Below are positions 56,382-62,317 of a stretch of 64,000 bases of DNA, piece by piece. The stretch is from Nitrosomonas eutropha. Its GTDB lineage: Bacteria > Pseudomonadota > Gammaproteobacteria > Burkholderiales > Nitrosomonadaceae. Within the stretch, counting starts at the first letter, position 1, and every line of letters starts with the position of its first letter. A model generated the notes under the pieces. That model was not told where the DNA came from and made no database searches. It worked only from the letters and a program-made list of their open reading frames with translations. The translations under genes were made by a program, and so were the position numbers. The DNA lies in NCBI RefSeq assembly GCF_900116685.1, contig NZ_FPBL01000002.1, positions 186,001 through 250,000 on the forward strand. The letters run 5' to 3'.

Positions 56382-56594
56382 CAGTTCATCATTCCTTCAA
56401 TGAAGGATAAATCGATAATGCATAATCACTCCAATTATCAGCATGACCTATCCCTCCTTTTAGTAACTTAAAAAATCAATCGCCAGATCTAGTTAGGAAA
56501 CTATCATCATTCGCACAATTTATATCAGCCCTTTTACCCGCCCCGGTATTCATGCTACGATTTTCACACATTACTATTACAGTTGGAGGTAGAA

Positions 56595-57125
56595 ATGCTT
56601 TTTGTGAGGACAATTATCACCCTTCTCGCCTTATTGTCGACAAGCTGGGTGTCCGCTAAAGATCAGGTACCGTATGCTACGCAGGTTAATGATCTGATGC
56701 GCTATTATCGTGTTACTCCTCAAATTGCCACTTCTGGAGCTCTTACTCATGACAGCATTCAAGAACTGGTTAAGCACAGCTTCAACACTGTAATAGATTT
56801 ACGTATTGAATCGGAAGGTACGCCAAATGAAAAGAAAGCTGTCGAAGCAGCCGGAATGACCTATATCAACATCCCCATTACCAATGACGGCGTAAATGAA
56901 TCACAATTGACAGCCTTCAAGCGGGTACTGGAACAAGCATCCCCTCCTTTTTTGGTACATTGCGCAACTGGCAACCGGGCAGGCGCCATGTGGACGGCTT
57001 ACCGACTGAAGGAAGGTATTTCTCCAGAAATTGCCCTCAAGGAAGGGCGTGCTGCCGGTATGAATGCCGGCATGGAAGAAAAAATCAAAAAATACTGGTG
57101 TGTAAAGATTGAGGGTGGGTGTTAA
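56595..57125 (+). CDS. Periplasmic dual-specificity-type (HCX5R) phosphatase
   Basis: A 176-residue protein from ATG at 56595, chosen for the SD GGAGGT just upstream; TTG at 56583 is the longer option. A Sec signal peptide leads to SAKDQ. The catalytic P-loop is HCATGNRAG (HCX5R) near residues 126-134, and the preceding segment FNTVIDLRIESEGTPNEKKAVEAAGMTYINIPI matches DUF442/tyrosine-phosphatase-like proteins. It is convergent with the FapF-like gene, sharing the terminator at 57.15 kb. Confidence 0.8.
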   Translation: MLFVRTIITLLALLSTSWVSAKDQVPYATQVNDLMRYYRVTPQIATSGALTHDSIQELVKHSFNTVIDLRIESEGTPNEKKAVEAAGMTYINIPITNDGVNESQLTAFKRVLEQASPPFLVHCATGNRAGAMWTAYRLKEGISPEIALKEGRAAGMNAGMEEKIKKYWCVKIEGGC

Positions 57126-57180: not shown

Positions 57181-58515
57181 CTAAAACACCATGGGTATTC
57201 TAAAACTGAGTCTGACATCCTGTGCATCATTGGTTGTACCTATAGCAACAGAGAAATTCAAGGTGGTCCGCTGCGAATATTTAAATGCATAGCCAAGCAG
57301 TAACTGTCCTATATCCAGCTGACTACCTTTCAATGTACGATTATTTATTTTGGTGTTAAAAATGTGGCGATGGCCATACCCTATATTGAAAGACGAGCGC
57401 TCGTTAATCCCGAACCCCATACCAAAAGTCATACCCACCGCATAACCTGGATCGACCTTAAATTTATCACCTGATCCATCAAGTGCCTTTTCCTTAGTGC
57501 CCATATTATAGTTATAGGCCAGATTTGCGAAAAATACAGCCGGGTCAGTCGCGTAAAGTGCAGTCACACTTGGCTCAAAGCTGAAGAAACCAGATCCTGT
57601 AGGAACCTCAGTAGGAAATATAGCTCCAGGAACTCCTTGTGCCTGTGCATATTTAATATCAAAAGGGCCTTTGCCCGTAGGTGCTGTAGCTCGCATATTT
57701 CCCACCAGAATAGGCCACCCCCCCGCTCCTGAGTTAAGCTGATAGCGAGCAGCAAATTCAATGTCTCCCAAACCATTTCCAGATGCGTTGAATGTTTCAT
57801 CAATCCCTGCACCAATGCTGACTGGCCTGGAGCGTTGCTCATCAAAACGTGCACGATAAGGAACCCTTGCTTCGATCTCAAGACGGTCTGTCACACCGTA
57901 ACGAGCCCCAATGCTTGCCATCATGCTGTGTTGATCTACCTGGCGGATATCTATCAAACCGATGGCAATTGCTGGAATAAATGTAAATGCATCCAGAAAA
58001 ACCCGATTGCTGTCTGTAAAAGCATATTCCAGCGCAGGCTCAATCACAATTTTTCCTTGGCGTGTCAGCACCCCTCCTACTGCGTCACTCAACCTGGGCA
58101 TTTCAGGTGGTCTTGGTTTTTCATCCTGTTTTGGGGGGGCCTGTCCTACCGGTTTTGATGGAAGATTACTGGATTCTGCACGCGCCTGAACATGATCAGT
58201 ATTCTTATTAATCGGTTTAGCAGCCGTCGTCTTCGGTGGGGAAGATTGTGATGGGTAGGATGCTCCATTCTTGGTGGCAGCATTTCCAGAGGAATTACGA
58301 TCAGCTGATTGCGAGGTAATCAAAGAATCCAAGCGAGCTTTCAGATTTTCAATTTCCTTTCCCTGCTCAATAATAGTCTGCCGCTGCTTCTCAAATTCCT
58401 TCTGTTGCTGTGTAAAAAGAGATTTATACTGCTCAAGCACTTCATCTGCCGATTTTCCTGCTTGAGCGTAAATGACGAGAAATACTGTGAGACAGCCTGC
58501 GAATAACTTGTGCAT
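57181..58515 (-). CDS. FapF-like outer-membrane amyloid secretion protein (coiled coil plus beta barrel)
   Basis: A 444-residue protein from ATG at 58515 (MHKLFAGCLTVFLVIYAQA), chosen because the signal peptide begins there; the ATG at 58563 adds 16 residues. After the signal come a coiled coil (QYKSLFTQQQKEFEKQRQTI, GKEIENLKARLDSL), a Pro/Lys/Ser-rich linker, and a C-terminal barrel (LTRQGKIVIEPALEYAF, LEIEARVPYRARF, LGDIEFAARYQLN, VAIGTTNDAQDVRLSFRIPM). The barrel ends in Phe. This coiled coil-linker-barrel order matches FapF, the amyloid exporter of Pseudomonas. Identity is inferred with the C39 neighbour. Confidence 0.75.
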   Translation of the reverse strand: MHKLFAGCLTVFLVIYAQAGKSADEVLEQYKSLFTQQQKEFEKQRQTIIEQGKEIENLKARLDSLITSQSADRNSSGNAATKNGASYPSQSSPPKTTAAKPINKNTDHVQARAESSNLPSKPVGQAPPKQDEKPRPPEMPRLSDAVGGVLTRQGKIVIEPALEYAFTDSNRVFLDAFTFIPAIAIGLIDIRQVDQHSMMASIGARYGVTDRLEIEARVPYRARFDEQRSRPVSIGAGIDETFNASGNGLGDIEFAARYQLNSGAGGWPILVGNMRATAPTGKGPFDIKYAQAQGVPGAIFPTEVPTGSGFFSFEPSVTALYATDPAVFFANLAYNYNMGTKEKALDGSGDKFKVDPGYAVGMTFGMGFGINERSSFNIGYGHRHIFNTKINNRTLKGSQLDIGQLLLGYAFKYSQRTTLNFSVAIGTTNDAQDVRLSFRIPMVF

Positions 58516-58586
58516 TATATTACCCGTCAACTGACCAGCCTCTTTAGACACATCTCTTTTCATATTTAGCAACGTAAATGATCAAG

Positions 58587-59087
58587 CTATCGCAGCAATG
58601 CCGGAGCCAGAAATTCAGTAAAAACCCGATGATTACTGCCATTTGCCATCACTTCCTTCAAGTTGCTAACTTCTATGTTGATTTTTGTCAGGGCATCAAT
58701 ATGCTGACTATCCAGCGTGTTCTGAATAAAAGAACTGAGTTGTGGCATCGCAACAGAATCAGGTGCCAAATTTTGCATACCCGTCTGTAAAACTACACTT
58801 TCTCCAGGAACTTGCATGGAGGATGAATGTACCAACATATCATTCAAATGAATAAATTTTTCCAGATTCATATCAATGTGTATGCCGTTTGGAAGGATAA
58901 ACCCCCCTCTCAATGTTGAAAGCTCTTCATCTGTTGCTCGTTCCCATTCCTGGTGGAAATGATCCTGTGTCAACGTTCTAGTATTCAGATCCTCTGCATA
59001 TGCCGCAACCATAGAACAAGACAGTATCAGCATAGCAAGACATGATTGAATATTTTTAACCATCAGACGAAAACTCTTGATTCTCAT
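58587..59087 (-). CDS. Secreted small protein with a double-glycine-like motif, amyloid locus
   Basis: A 166-residue protein with a Sec signal peptide ending near AYAED (about residue 31). Shortly after is DEELSTLRGGF (about residues 53-63): EEL at -9 to -7, L at -4 and GG at -2/-1 match the leader cleaved by C39 peptidases. The rest is helical and has no known domain (SSFIQNTLDSQHIDALTKINIEVSNLKEVM). It sits between the C39 peptidase and the FapF-like gene, in the place of fapE or fapA. A small purine-rich ribosome site precedes the ATG at 59087. Confidence 0.65.
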   Translation of the reverse strand: MRIKSFRLMVKNIQSCLAMLILSCSMVAAYAEDLNTRTLTQDHFHQEWERATDEELSTLRGGFILPNGIHIDMNLEKFIHLNDMLVHSSSMQVPGESVVLQTGMQNLAPDSVAMPQLSSFIQNTLDSQHIDALTKINIEVSNLKEVMANGSNHRVFTEFLAPALLR

Positions 59088-59111
59088 TTTTCCCCCGCAC
59101 CATATGAATTA

Positions 59112-59804
59112 TCAAAAATCCCAAGGGCCTGGGTGCAATACATTAAAAACCCCTAAACTTGATCGATCAACAGCCTCACCCAGCGGAGCCACTCTGCCCA
59201 CCCATTCCTGATGTATTTTTTGATAGCTTACTTCAGGATCGCGATTATCATGGATCAGAAATAAAATACGATTCCCCCACATTTCTTCAAATTCGGAACG
59301 ATCCATGGATTTAACACCCTGAGCCGGATCACCTAATAAAATTTTGTATTCATCCACTCCCTTAATGATGACAAAGTGCATGTAACCATTGTGGTTGATG
59401 ATGGTAATAGCGGGATTTCCAGTAGAACGTAATTTATTCAGATCAATCTTGAAACCATCCGAACGATATCCTCTGCGCTCAAGATACAGTTTCATATCCA
59501 GCATGGAAAACCCTTCCCGTTTTATTTTCTCCTGATTCCCATGCTGAAACATATCGACAAATACAGATTGTTCGTCAACCATATCGTCATAATGAAAAGT
59601 AAGCAGGCTCGCCAGAGCAGCAGAACCACAGCTGAAATCATACTGTTGCCGATAAACAGTATTGAAACGCCGTTCTGCAAAACTTTTTACTTGTATATTA
59701 AAGTTGGCACCGCCTACCATATCGATCATATCCATCCCTGATACTTCACTACAAGGAATTATCAGGATCTCTAATAGAGCAAACGTGATCAGAGACAGTT
59801 TCAT
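59112..59804 (-). CDS. FapD-like C39-family peptidase
   Basis: A 230-residue protein from ATG at 59804; a TTG start upstream is less likely. A signal peptide (LSLITFALLEILIIPCSEVS) suggests export. The C39 catalytic residues are seen: Gln and Cys in QYDFSCGSAALASLL, His in NGYMHFVII and Asp in LLGDPAQG. In the Fap system FapD is a C39-type protease required for amyloid export. There is no ABC transporter or membrane domain, unlike bacteriocin exporters. It lies 24 bp upstream of the double-glycine gene. Confidence 0.82.
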   Translation of the reverse strand: MKLSLITFALLEILIIPCSEVSGMDMIDMVGGANFNIQVKSFAERRFNTVYRQQYDFSCGSAALASLLTFHYDDMVDEQSVFVDMFQHGNQEKIKREGFSMLDMKLYLERRGYRSDGFKIDLNKLRSTGNPAITIINHNGYMHFVIIKGVDEYKILLGDPAQGVKSMDRSEFEEMWGNRILFLIHDNRDPEVSYQKIHQEWVGRVAPLGEAVDRSSLGVFNVLHPGPWDF

Positions 59805-59930
59805 ATGCGATTTTGTCCTGGAGTAACTAAAATTGCTTACCACCTCATGCAATAAATCTCAAGAAACTGGCAAAACAATAAATTGTGGGCACTATGCTAT
59901 CGGCTGCCCCCTCAAAATATTCAGTCTAAA

Positions 59931-60299
59931 TCAAGGTAATATCGTTACATTAATAATTGTCGAGTCCTGAATAAGAACATTGTTACCCGAATTCTGAATC
60001 ACTGAAAACATACCTCCCGATCCAGCAAAAGAACCGTTGTCAATCATATTAAAGCCGCTAGCATTGTTCGTTGCCGTATTGCCCGAAAGAAGTGCGCGAA
60101 CATTCAAATTGTTCACGGCCGTTACATCAATACCCTCTCGGCCTGTCGTCCCATCAAGCTCCTCCAGGGAAGCTCTTTCCGCATGAGGAAGGTATGTATC
60201 CTCGACCGCCATCAATTCCGTACCGGATGCTGCGTAAATCATGCCAACAGGCATGAATAATGCAAACGCAACCAAGCCTTTTCTGATATTGGCTTTCAT
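59931..60299 (-). CDS. Small amyloid-subunit-like secreted protein (FapB-like candidate)
   Basis: A 122-residue protein from the ATG at 60299; GGAG sits 6 bases upstream, so the GTG at 60311 is rejected. A signal peptide ends at IYAASG. The C-terminal part GMFSVIQNSGNNVLIQDSTI resembles the end of the repeat protein (GLNQVAQNLGSSSLVQQQVSF) at matching positions (G...V.QN.G...L.Q). An Asn-rich tract precedes it (TATNNASGFNMIDNGSFAGSG). It lies between a terminator and the C39 gene, matching a minor amyloid subunit. Confidence 0.65.
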   Translation of the reverse strand: MKANIRKGLVAFALFMPVGMIYAASGTELMAVEDTYLPHAERASLEELDGTTGREGIDVTAVNNLNVRALLSGNTATNNASGFNMIDNGSFAGSGGMFSVIQNSGNNVLIQDSTIINVTILP

Positions 60300-60342
60300 A
60301 CTAATCTCCACATATTGCTGATATTTATATCTTCTGTTTTAG

Positions 60343-60382
60343 CAAAAAAAACTGGCAAGCAATATCGTTACTGCTTGCCAGT
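60343..60382 (-). terminator. Strong terminator after the repeat-protein gene
   Basis: On the minus strand a hairpin has an 11 bp perfect stem, ACTGGCAAGCA (60351-60361) with TGCTTGCCAGT (60372-60382), a 10-base loop, and then a TTTTTTT run (60344-60350, as A on plus). It lies 48 bp after the repeat gene's stop and 44 bp before the small subunit's start. Confidence 0.88.
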
Positions 60383-60430
60383 CAGAAGAGTTACATCATT
60401 AACCCAAGTTGTAATTATCCAAACTTACAA

Positions 60431-61486
60431 TTATTGGTTAACGTTTACATTACCCTGGAAGGAAACTTGCTGTTGAACTAGCGAGCTGGATCCAAGGTTT
60501 TGAGCAACCTGATTCAGGCCTGCACCATTGAACGAATCAGAAATGTTGTTGCTTAAATTTCCACCTGCAAGTGCAACAGCTTCTTCAACTGATAAACCGC
60601 CAGCTGACTGACCTGTTACAGATCCTTCCAATGCTGAATTGTTAACAGAATAGGTAGCTGTTGCATCGCCACCATTGGATGCTGCACTGCCATTTTTTGC
60701 AGTAGTTTGGCTGTTATCGCTGTTATTGGTATTGTCTACAGTTGCAGTACCGCCATTGTTGGCAGCTGCAGATTGACCTTCAGCAGATGCGGAGCTGTTG
60801 TCGCTGTGATCACTGTTGTCAACCGTGGCTGTACTACCATTGTTAGCTGCAGCACTGCCTTGACCACTCGCATCAGCCAAGCTGTTGTCACTGTTATCGC
60901 TGTTGTCGCTGTTGTCGCTGTTGTCAGCAGTAGCGGTACTTCCATTATTGGCAGCGGCACCATAGCCGTCAGCATACGCAGAGCTGTTGTCGTTATTGCT
61001 GTCAGCGGTGTTGGTGCTGTTGTTGCTGCTGTCGTTATTGCTGTCAGCAGTGTTGGTGCTGTTGTTGCTGCTGTCGTTATTGCTGTCAGCAGTGTTGGTG
61101 CTGTTGTCGTTACCGTTGTTGTCAGCAGTGCTCGAGTTGGTGCTGTTGTCATTACCGTTGTTGTCAGCAGTGCTTGAGCTGGTGCTGTTGTCGTTACCGT
61201 TGTTGTCAGCAGTGCTTGAGCTGGTGCTGTTGTCATTACCGTTGTTGTCAGCAGTGCTTGAGTTGGTGCTGTTGTCGTTACCGTTGTTGTCAGCAGTGCT
61301 TGTGTTGCCATCAGCGGAGGTTGTATTGCCGTTAGCTGTGCTTGCAGTACTTCCATCACCTTTGACGCCAGCAGAGTCAGCTATAGACAACGGTGACGGT
61401 ACCGCTTCAACTGCCCAAGCATTACCTGCAAAACCAAACGCCAGAACGATACTGGCAGCCAGAATTTTTTTAGAAAATTGATCCAT
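60431..61486 (-). CDS. Low-complexity repeat protein, candidate major functional amyloid (FapC-like)
   Basis: A 351-residue protein from the ATG at 61486, with AAGGA 7 bases upstream; a longer start lacks a site. A Sec signal ends in AWAVEA. After it come about five 14-residue units (STADNNGNDNSTNS), three TADSNNDSSNNSTN units, an NSD tract and three longer units with AAANNGSTATVDNSD. The protein is rich in Asn, Asp, Ser and Thr with almost no aromatics. The C-terminal 40 residues (FNGAGLNQVAQNLGSSSLVQ) match those seen in bacterial surface amyloid and adhesin proteins. No catalytic site. Confidence 0.75.
   Translation of the reverse strand: MDQFSKKILAASIVLAFGFAGNAWAVEAVPSPLSIADSAGVKGDGSTASTANGNTTSADGNTSTADNNGNDNSTNSSTADNNGNDNSTSSSTADNNGNDNSTSSSTADNNGNDNSTNSSTADNNGNDNSTNTADSNNDSSNNSTNTADSNNDSSNNSTNTADSNNDNSSAYADGYGAAANNGSTATADNSDNSDNSDNSDNSLADASGQGSAAANNGSTATVDNSDHSDNSSASAEGQSAAANNGGTATVDNTNNSDNSQTTAKNGSAASNGGDATATYSVNNSALEGSVTGQSAGGLSVEEAVALAGGNLSNNISDSFNGAGLNQVAQNLGSSSLVQQQVSFQGNVNVNQ
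60980..61300 (-). repeat. 42-bp tandem repeats in the repeat-protein gene
   Basis: Two arrays of 42-base units encode 14-residue repeats. Array 1 (about 61094-61300) has five units of STADNNGNDNSTNS with few changes; array 2 (about 60980-61093) has three units of TADSNNDSSNNSTN. A 9-base NSD/DNS tract follows at about 60881-60922. The near identity of units suggests length change by recombination. Confidence 0.9.
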
Positions 61487-62044: not shown

Positions 62045-62317
62045 ATGGACTATGAAAAATATAAGCGCCTGCCCAGATCGCATTACACCTTGCTTGAGGC
62101 CAGCCGTGAAAAGAAAACAACCAATACAAAAATCCTCGCACAACACCTCAATCGATCTCCGGCAACCATTCGAACCCAGTTTCAGAGAATCATGGCATTT
62201 CTTGAGGTTCACTGCAGATATGAAGCACTGCGTAAAGCAGAGGAGAAAGGTTTGATCAGGCAAAATAGACGCCTCCCCCCTGCCTGTACAGAAGAGAGTA
62301 GTTCACCGCAAGCCTAG
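62045..62317 (+). CDS. Small LuxR-type helix-turn-helix regulator
   Basis: A 90-residue protein consisting of little more than a DNA-binding domain. The helix-turn-helix is seen as LAQHLNRSPATIRTQFQRIMAFLEVHCRYEALRKAEEKGLI, in line with LuxR/NarL (LxxSxxTVxxHxxxIxxKLxV). It lacks a receiver or ligand domain. It is divergent from the repeat gene and probably controls it; this is inference from position. Start ATG at 62045. Confidence 0.75.
   Translation: MDYEKYKRLPRSHYTLLEASREKKTTNTKILAQHLNRSPATIRTQFQRIMAFLEVHCRYEALRKAEEKGLIRQNRRLPPACTEESSSPQA

Follow-up and report, generated by a model that had tools for sequence, protein, structure and literature searches.

A probable divergent Fap-type export locus in Nitrosomonas eutropha, with a conserved leader that nominates a cleavage site for the FapD peptidase

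A stretch of 64,000 nucleotides from Nitrosomonas eutropha (assembly GCF_900116685.1, contig NZ_FPBL01000002.1, positions 186,001 to 250,000; hereafter the window) carries on its minus strand, at 57181-61486, five consecutive open reading frames (ORFs) that probably make up a divergent, self-contained export system of the Fap type, with Fap of Pseudomonas as the nearest known set. The locus encodes homologues of FapF and FapD in a conserved operon, its subunits share a motif, and the protein in the position of FapE bears a conserved, double-glycine-like leader of the C39 type. This leader nominates a cleavage site for FapD, whereby FapE, whose precursor has a short pro-region besides its signal peptide, would be cut after RGG or RG[RK]. 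The label "type II Fap" is coined here for the divergent Fap-type loci, as distinct from the classic loci of the Pseudomonas kind. An original prediction, made from the letters of the DNA, had described a Fap-like functional amyloid secretion locus in this region; that the locus makes a functional amyloid is something we infer from homology.

In order of transcription, the locus encodes a repeat protein of 351 residues (P0005; FapC position, 60431-61486), a small secreted protein of 122 residues (P0004; FapB position, 59931-60299), a C39 peptidase of 230 residues (P0003; 59112-59804), a second small secreted protein of 166 residues (P0002; FapE position, 58587-59087) and a helix-plus-barrel protein of 444 residues (P0001; 57181-58515). 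The original prediction had named five minus-strand genes of these kinds, and all five ORFs are present where it placed them. It had also claimed Sec signals on every protein, and a signal can be seen by eye at each N-terminus, that of the peptidase being the least clear.

The barrel protein is a firm homologue of FapF. It matches the NCBIfam FapF model at an expectation value (E) of 2.8e-40, with 138 bits against a cut-off of 700, and the FapF sequence of the PDB at 3e-26. The AlphaFold model (mean predicted local distance difference test score, pLDDT, of 77.6) has a helix to residue 70, a disordered linker at 74-147 and a barrel from residue 156, and in a Foldseek search of the PDB ranks 1-18 were all FapF chains, with template modelling scores of 0.81-0.85 to the target. 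The N-terminal periplasmic helix, a putative coiled-coil region, corresponds to 58306-58455 on the minus strand. PTG motifs occur at residues 279-281 and 305-307, 26 residues apart, just as P233 and P259 are in the Pseudomonas FapF of the passages cited from PMC5557850. The profile search and structure prediction that had been suggested for this protein thus return a FapF family match and a FapF-like fold, and the outer-membrane protein, predicted to combine a helix with a FapF-type barrel, is not a porin of another family.

The homology of the peptidase to FapD is equally firm. It matches Pfam C39 at 6.4e-20, NCBIfam FapD at 1.8e-38 (132 bits against a cut-off of 330) and NCBIfam FilB at 1.9e-36, in agreement with its earlier description as an exported, FapD-like C39 protein. 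The catalytic Cys59 is conserved in 99 of 99 distinct type II loci, and His143 and Asp159, taken as catalytic by reference to the C39 family, in 98 of 99 each, the remaining row being a gap. P0003 is a free protein with no ABC (ATP-binding cassette) exporter fused to it and is 97% identical to the peptidase of Nitrosomonas eutropha Nm 57; no second copy of the peptidase or of the small subunit was found in the same genome.

The most informative part of the locus is the leader of the FapE-position protein, which the original prediction had noted as a cleavable-looking motif and which proves to be a conserved C39-type leader, present also in the small subunit of part of the loci. In the window, P0002 consists of a signal peptide, a pro-region of about 30 residues, the leader DEELSTLRGG (58902-58931, minus strand; predicted FapD cut after G62) and a mature part with an IQN motif. 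In the alignment of the FapE-position family, R60, G61 and G62 are invariant in 20 of 20 rows and the leucine at -7 is nearly invariant. Within the first 170 residues of ORFs in the training loci, L...RGG occurred in 121/498 same-strand ORFs near FapD, as against 2/545 near ORFs on the opposite strand, 23/2517 distant ORFs and 1/498 shuffled sequences, and 92 of 99 training loci possessed it. Leader patterns were fixed before a hold-out set of 60 further stretches was searched, with FapD genes classed by the nearest training FapD. For type II, L...RGG was found in 35/142 near ORFs versus 7/783 elsewhere, and beside 23 of 25 FapD genes (P 7e-24); for classic loci, L...RG[GRK] was found in 19/112 versus 15/738, beside 16 of 22 genes (P 1.6e-9), one such ORF being the FapE of the Pseudomonas-like locus L196. 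When training and hold-out sets are combined, an ORF of FapE size with Y, F or I directly after L...RG[GRKAQ] lies downstream of 28 of 37 classic FapD genes.

Residues outside the pattern are also selective. Glutamate at -8 was enriched 12-fold in training and 10-fold in the hold-out, and phenylalanine at +1 20-fold in both. Position -12 prefers V, A or L and position -6 D or A, while the leading residues at -4 are L and M in the training set but M, Y and Q, with L, in the hold-out. The consensus of double-glycine leaders is LSxxELxxIxGG, which these positions appear to fit in part. Among type II loci, L...RGG is present in the called FapE-position protein in 85/97, in the called FapB-position protein in 33/89, and in both in 26 loci. 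With the leader included, the type II FapE-position family matches classic FapE at the profile level (2.1e-6, probability 89%), and P0002 itself reaches the NCBIfam FapE model at E 0.048. Taken as a family of 20 members, the FapE-position proteins gave no Pfam or NCBIfam match at E 0.01.

The subunits appear distantly Fap-like at the profile level. The repeat protein, a candidate major subunit judging from its tandem repeats, its homologues in the genus and its C-terminal profile, contains 42-bp tandem arrays at 60983-61307 (5.1 copies at 95% match and 3.0 copies at 97%), and N, D, S or T make up 72% of residues 41-265. Its conserved C-terminal motif is FNGAGLNQVAQNLGSSSLVQQQVSFQGNVNVNQ (60434-60532). 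The FapB-position protein, a candidate minor subunit or nucleator, has a signal peptide, a degenerate leader motif, SLEELDGTTGREG (60132-60170), without the full L...RGG form, and a C-terminal VIQNSGNNVLIQ motif. The conserved, amyloid-like motif at its residues 82-116 (59952-60056) is a beta hairpin in a low-confidence model (pLDDT 59, predicted template modelling score 0.23; too weak for a fold search). This motif is common to the small subunit and the C-terminus of the repeat protein, whose C-terminal profile also finds the small-subunit family, and four copies of it are present in the repeat protein of two other loci (L078 and L079).

Kinship with classic subunits was examined by searching the small-subunit C-terminal profile against 2552 ORFs of classic fap loci, which gave 36 matches at E up to 10. 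The top 26 (E 3.7e-7 to 2.6) all lie on the strand of FapD and no more than 2.6 kb from it. Of these, 16 are upstream, in the position of FapB and FapC, 14 of them having three domains, and the other 10 are downstream, in that of FapE. Four of the ten weaker matches are on the strand opposite FapD. The FapB of control locus L196 was not among the matches. On the strength of the shared motif and this ranking of classic subunits, we interpret the repeat protein as a FapC-like subunit and the small protein as a FapB-like one. The NCBIfam FapA, FapB and FapC models matched none of the locus proteins at E up to 10, the 50-member small-subunit family found, at E 0.01, a single unrelated model in each of Pfam and NCBIfam, through one member, and no Pfam curlin match to P0004 or P0005 was seen at E up to 10. 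The earlier remark that the subunits are not obvious sequence matches to Fap therefore stands, with kinship visible at the profile level.

The repeat gene also differs in repeat number between close relatives, with 351 residues in the window and about 450 in the counterpart at L021:5514-6890, where copy number is higher, and this gap suggests rapid change in the length of the protein. Two repeat-protein genes were called in several Nitrosomonas loci (L027, L030, L120, L126, L127 and L129, of which L030 and L126 are one contig), and in one metagenome-assembled genome (L026/L119) the small-subunit frame seems broken near the C-terminus. The gap between the FapC- and FapB-position genes contains a hairpin resembling an intrinsic terminator (60350-60383; 15-pair stem and T run), which could set the ratio of major to minor subunit. 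Such hairpins were found in 9/42 of these gaps versus 10/840 shuffled sequences (Nitrosomonas 4/14, others 5/28); a terminator after the major-subunit gene is present in the window and was rejected as a general feature, occurring in only those nine gaps.

Within the genus, a strong peptidase homologue (58-100% identity) was found in 12 of the 61 genomes searched, its neighbours being collinear up to the ends of the contigs. Ten further genomes (L021-L030) have all five families in this order, the repeat gene being only partly matched in L022 and L028, so that the arrangement is not due to chance; in L020 the last three families are in the same order and the contig begins there. The locus is also present in a Nitrosomonas europaea strain (L117). 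A wider scan of named genomes, with a type II alignment as query, considered the best 80 of at least 564 loci and is silent on the frequency of other types. These 80 include Nitrosomonas eutropha, N. europaea and others, together with Methylobacter, Methylomonas, Colwellia, Paraglaciecola, Massilia, Duganella, Paraburkholderia, Ralstonia, Geobacteraceae, Desulfopila and one Ignavibacteria metagenome-assembled genome. Outside the genus the type thus turns up in methanotrophs, Burkholderiales, Colwellia and Geobacteraceae.

In total, 107 type II loci, duplicates included, were assembled, of which 99 have a distinct FapD; they were assigned by match score and by the search from which they came, 31 being checked in a tree, and ten further matches (eight weaker, plus two) were left out. 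The commonest arrangements, written with the letters of the corresponding Fap positions, are CBDEF (31) and BDEF (22), followed by BDE (11) and CBDE (10), each of these last two with F inverted. Since the C profile was made from members of the genus, loci with no called C may hold a divergent one. One of the type II rows, L084, has neither E nor B and probably represents a fragment of a classic locus. A FapF-like gene was present in the same stretch for 60 of 62 standalone FapD genes in the hold-out. In a 68-row FapD tree, type II and classic sequences each lie on one side of a supported branch (Shimodaira-Hasegawa-like approximate likelihood ratio test, SH-aLRT, 99 and 98), the tree being a quick search with SH-aLRT values only and with some long branches outside both groups. 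The earlier suggestion of a divergent Fap type in an ammonia oxidiser agrees with this separation. The two kinds, classic fap and type II, coexist in one genome (G072, loci L066 and L091).

In the proposed mechanism, all five proteins would pass to the periplasm or envelope by Sec, where the FapD-like peptidase would cut the short pro-region off the FapE-position protein at ELSTLRGG and possibly also the FapB-position protein at its degenerate leader site. Cleavage would license recruitment by the coiled coil of FapF, and the FapC- and FapB-position subunits would then be exported through the FapF barrel. Outside the cell, the shared V.QN.G.N...Q motifs may stack, with the small subunit acting as a seed and the repeat protein supplying most of a surface fibre rich in N, D and S. 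Leader cleavage, the position of the cut, the order of export and cross-beta fibres are predictions, while trimerisation of the barrel, FapF recruitment, seeding by the small subunit and fibre growth are proposed by analogy. On balance, we also favour a more general proposal, that periplasmic C39 peptidases of the FapD family define a route from Sec through C39 cleavage to a FapF-type barrel, in which substrates bear a double-glycine-like leader as a second label and the substrate of FapD is FapE, cut at RG[RKG]; this last point follows from the leader shared by type II and classic FapE. Variants of the label are L...RGG in type II, L...RG[RK] in classic FapE and, next to certain other FapD/FapF pairs, the less strict L...[ST]G[QAG], although the pattern preset for those pairs failed.

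In the passages cited from Rouse 2017 (PMC5557850), FapD and its cysteine were required for secretion of FapC, N-terminal peptides of FapE were missing from mass spectrometry and FapE was suspected as the FapD target; the same passages call the target unclear and describe canonical C39 sites as missing from Fap proteins. Those cited from Rouse 2018 (PMC6173800) have the FapD substrate still to be determined and report fapD-fapF pairs in five further phyla. The question becomes directly testable because the leader is conserved in a large sister class and recurs in classic FapE with the residue at -1 changed. In the cited parts of Lin 2018 (PMC6291783), a cross-beta, amyloid-like matrix is reported in granules enriched in ammonia oxidisers and curli proteins are noted in Nitrosomonas marina, Fap being unmentioned in the main text; the present locus is a further genetic candidate for the source of this matrix. 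Judged by titles and the openings of abstracts, the open-access literature searched described no FapD substrate; PMC6291783 was the one paper among those listed to name Nitrosomonas together with functional amyloid, and nothing on the present locus and no paper on FilB appeared. As far as that literature goes, the locus and its leader appear to be undescribed.

Several observations weigh against this interpretation. The bit scores for FapD and FapF (132/330 and 138/700) are far below the NCBIfam cut-offs, the window locus has no FapA, and the order of FapB and FapC is swapped (C-B-D-E-F versus fapABCDEF). Most of the 26 subunit matches are individually weak, with 8 at E below 0.03. L...RGG is a minority feature of the FapB-position protein, at 33 of the 89 loci with a called B, and the FapB-position protein of the window has no RGG but only the degenerate LEELDGTTGREG. 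Some L...RGG matches fall in overlapping frames, probably not real genes, or in other genes, and the controls allow for these. Homology to FapE beyond the leader was considered and dropped, the match becoming non-significant once the leader was cut off (probability 0.5%, E 0.11). In the cited passages of PMC5557850, moreover, FapA to FapD of Pseudomonas were seen unprocessed by mass spectrometry. Finally, a third preset leader pattern failed in group C, comprising FapD/FapF pairs without recognisable Fap subunits (0/15 genes, near ORFs 0/63); this hold-out test used ORFs of at least 90 residues, with the secretion filter named beforehand left off.

In an exploratory second look at group C, some neighbours carried L...[ST]GQ at the same spacing. 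At ten group C-like loci (L031, L094, L097, L107, L228, L229, L232, L249, L250 and L252), small secreted neighbours have forms such as [LM]D.[VI][TS][AG]G or L...TGQ past the signal, and the Pseudomonas-like loci among them adjoin a conserved protein of about 530 residues that is FadL-like by eye.

Three other explanations need to be weighed against a divergent Fap-type system. The locus could be an ordinary member of the Fap family that has merely diverged in sequence, with no difference in kind. The common FapD/FapF core and near-collinear order would suit this, as would variation already recorded in Fap, where the cited passages of Dueholm 2013 (PMC3792158) give a missing fapA as the commonest deviation, with operons lacking it in 6 of 16 genera, and a Vibrio FapB with one repeat. 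We consider it rather unlikely, given that the FapD tree separates type II from classic, that G072 holds both kinds, that the leader ends in RGG rather than RG[RK] and that the B and E families match no curated Fap model at E 0.01.

It is improbable, too, that FapD and FapF mature and release small peptides with a double-glycine leader, of a microcin-like or signalling kind, the repeat protein being a passive surface protein. The leader does resemble a double-glycine leader, P0002 has a weak match to a mediterrocin bacteriocin model (E 0.048) and FapD/FapF pairs without recognisable Fap subunits exist, but the C39 protein is free, at 230 residues, and not fused to an ABC exporter, and the motif of the small subunit and repeat protein is found also in classic proteins of the FapB/FapC and FapE positions. 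Hardly any weight can be given to the idea that P0001 is a COG4313-type uptake channel whose neighbours are unrelated. A channel of that type, 4rl8, does come next after FapF among the structural matches to P0001, but each of the 18 ahead of it is a FapF chain, and barrel and C39 peptidase are found together repeatedly, in different families. A divergent Fap-type export system accordingly remains our preferred reading of the locus.

Around the operon, a small ORF of 90 residues at 62045-62317 on the plus strand is divergent from it, helix-turn-helix-like by eye and without a Pfam match. Its place next to the operon is kept in some members of the genus, namely in six further genomes including N. 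europaea, N. eutropha and N. nitrosa (10 matches among 35 loci, four genomes being counted twice), and the ORF is possibly a regulator. On the other side, a convergent plus-strand gene at 56583-57125 resembles dual-specificity phosphatases (Pfam 3.1e-11) and has a signal-like N-terminus by eye. At gathering thresholds, Rfam found three tRNAs in the window, none near the locus.

Among known systems, the C39-containing ABC exporters of bacteriocin type I secretion resemble the locus in pairing a C39 domain with a double-glycine-like substrate leader, but the window peptidase is free and Sec-exported and its substrates carry a signal peptide ahead of the leader. In curli (type VIII secretion), too, an N/Q-rich motif is common to the major and minor subunits and there is a dedicated outer-membrane exporter, whereas the window locus has no curlin match, a different exporter and a C39 peptidase. 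The Fil system, represented by the NCBIfam FilB and FilC models and which we take to be that of Acinetobacter, shares a C39 peptidase (FilB 1.9e-36) and a FapF-type barrel (FilC 1.8e-15), but the window barrel fits FapF (2.8e-40) far better than FilC; no Fil model beyond these two appeared in a general NCBIfam scan, no component-by-component Fil test having been made. The closest likeness is to Fap of Pseudomonas, with which the locus shares a FapF-like barrel with an N-terminal helix, a Sec-exported FapD-like C39 peptidase, a FapB-like subunit motif, near-collinear gene order and a FapE-position protein with an L...RG leader. It differs in that its repeat protein has one conserved C-terminal motif and N/D/S repeats, its leader ends in RGG where the classic one ends in RG[RK], its FapD belongs to a separate clade and all its scores lie under the curated cut-offs, which all six genes of the Pseudomonas-like control locus L196 exceed. 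From its failure to reach the cut-offs, its gene order and its FapD clade, the locus is best placed as Fap-like and kin to Fap, outside the curated family.

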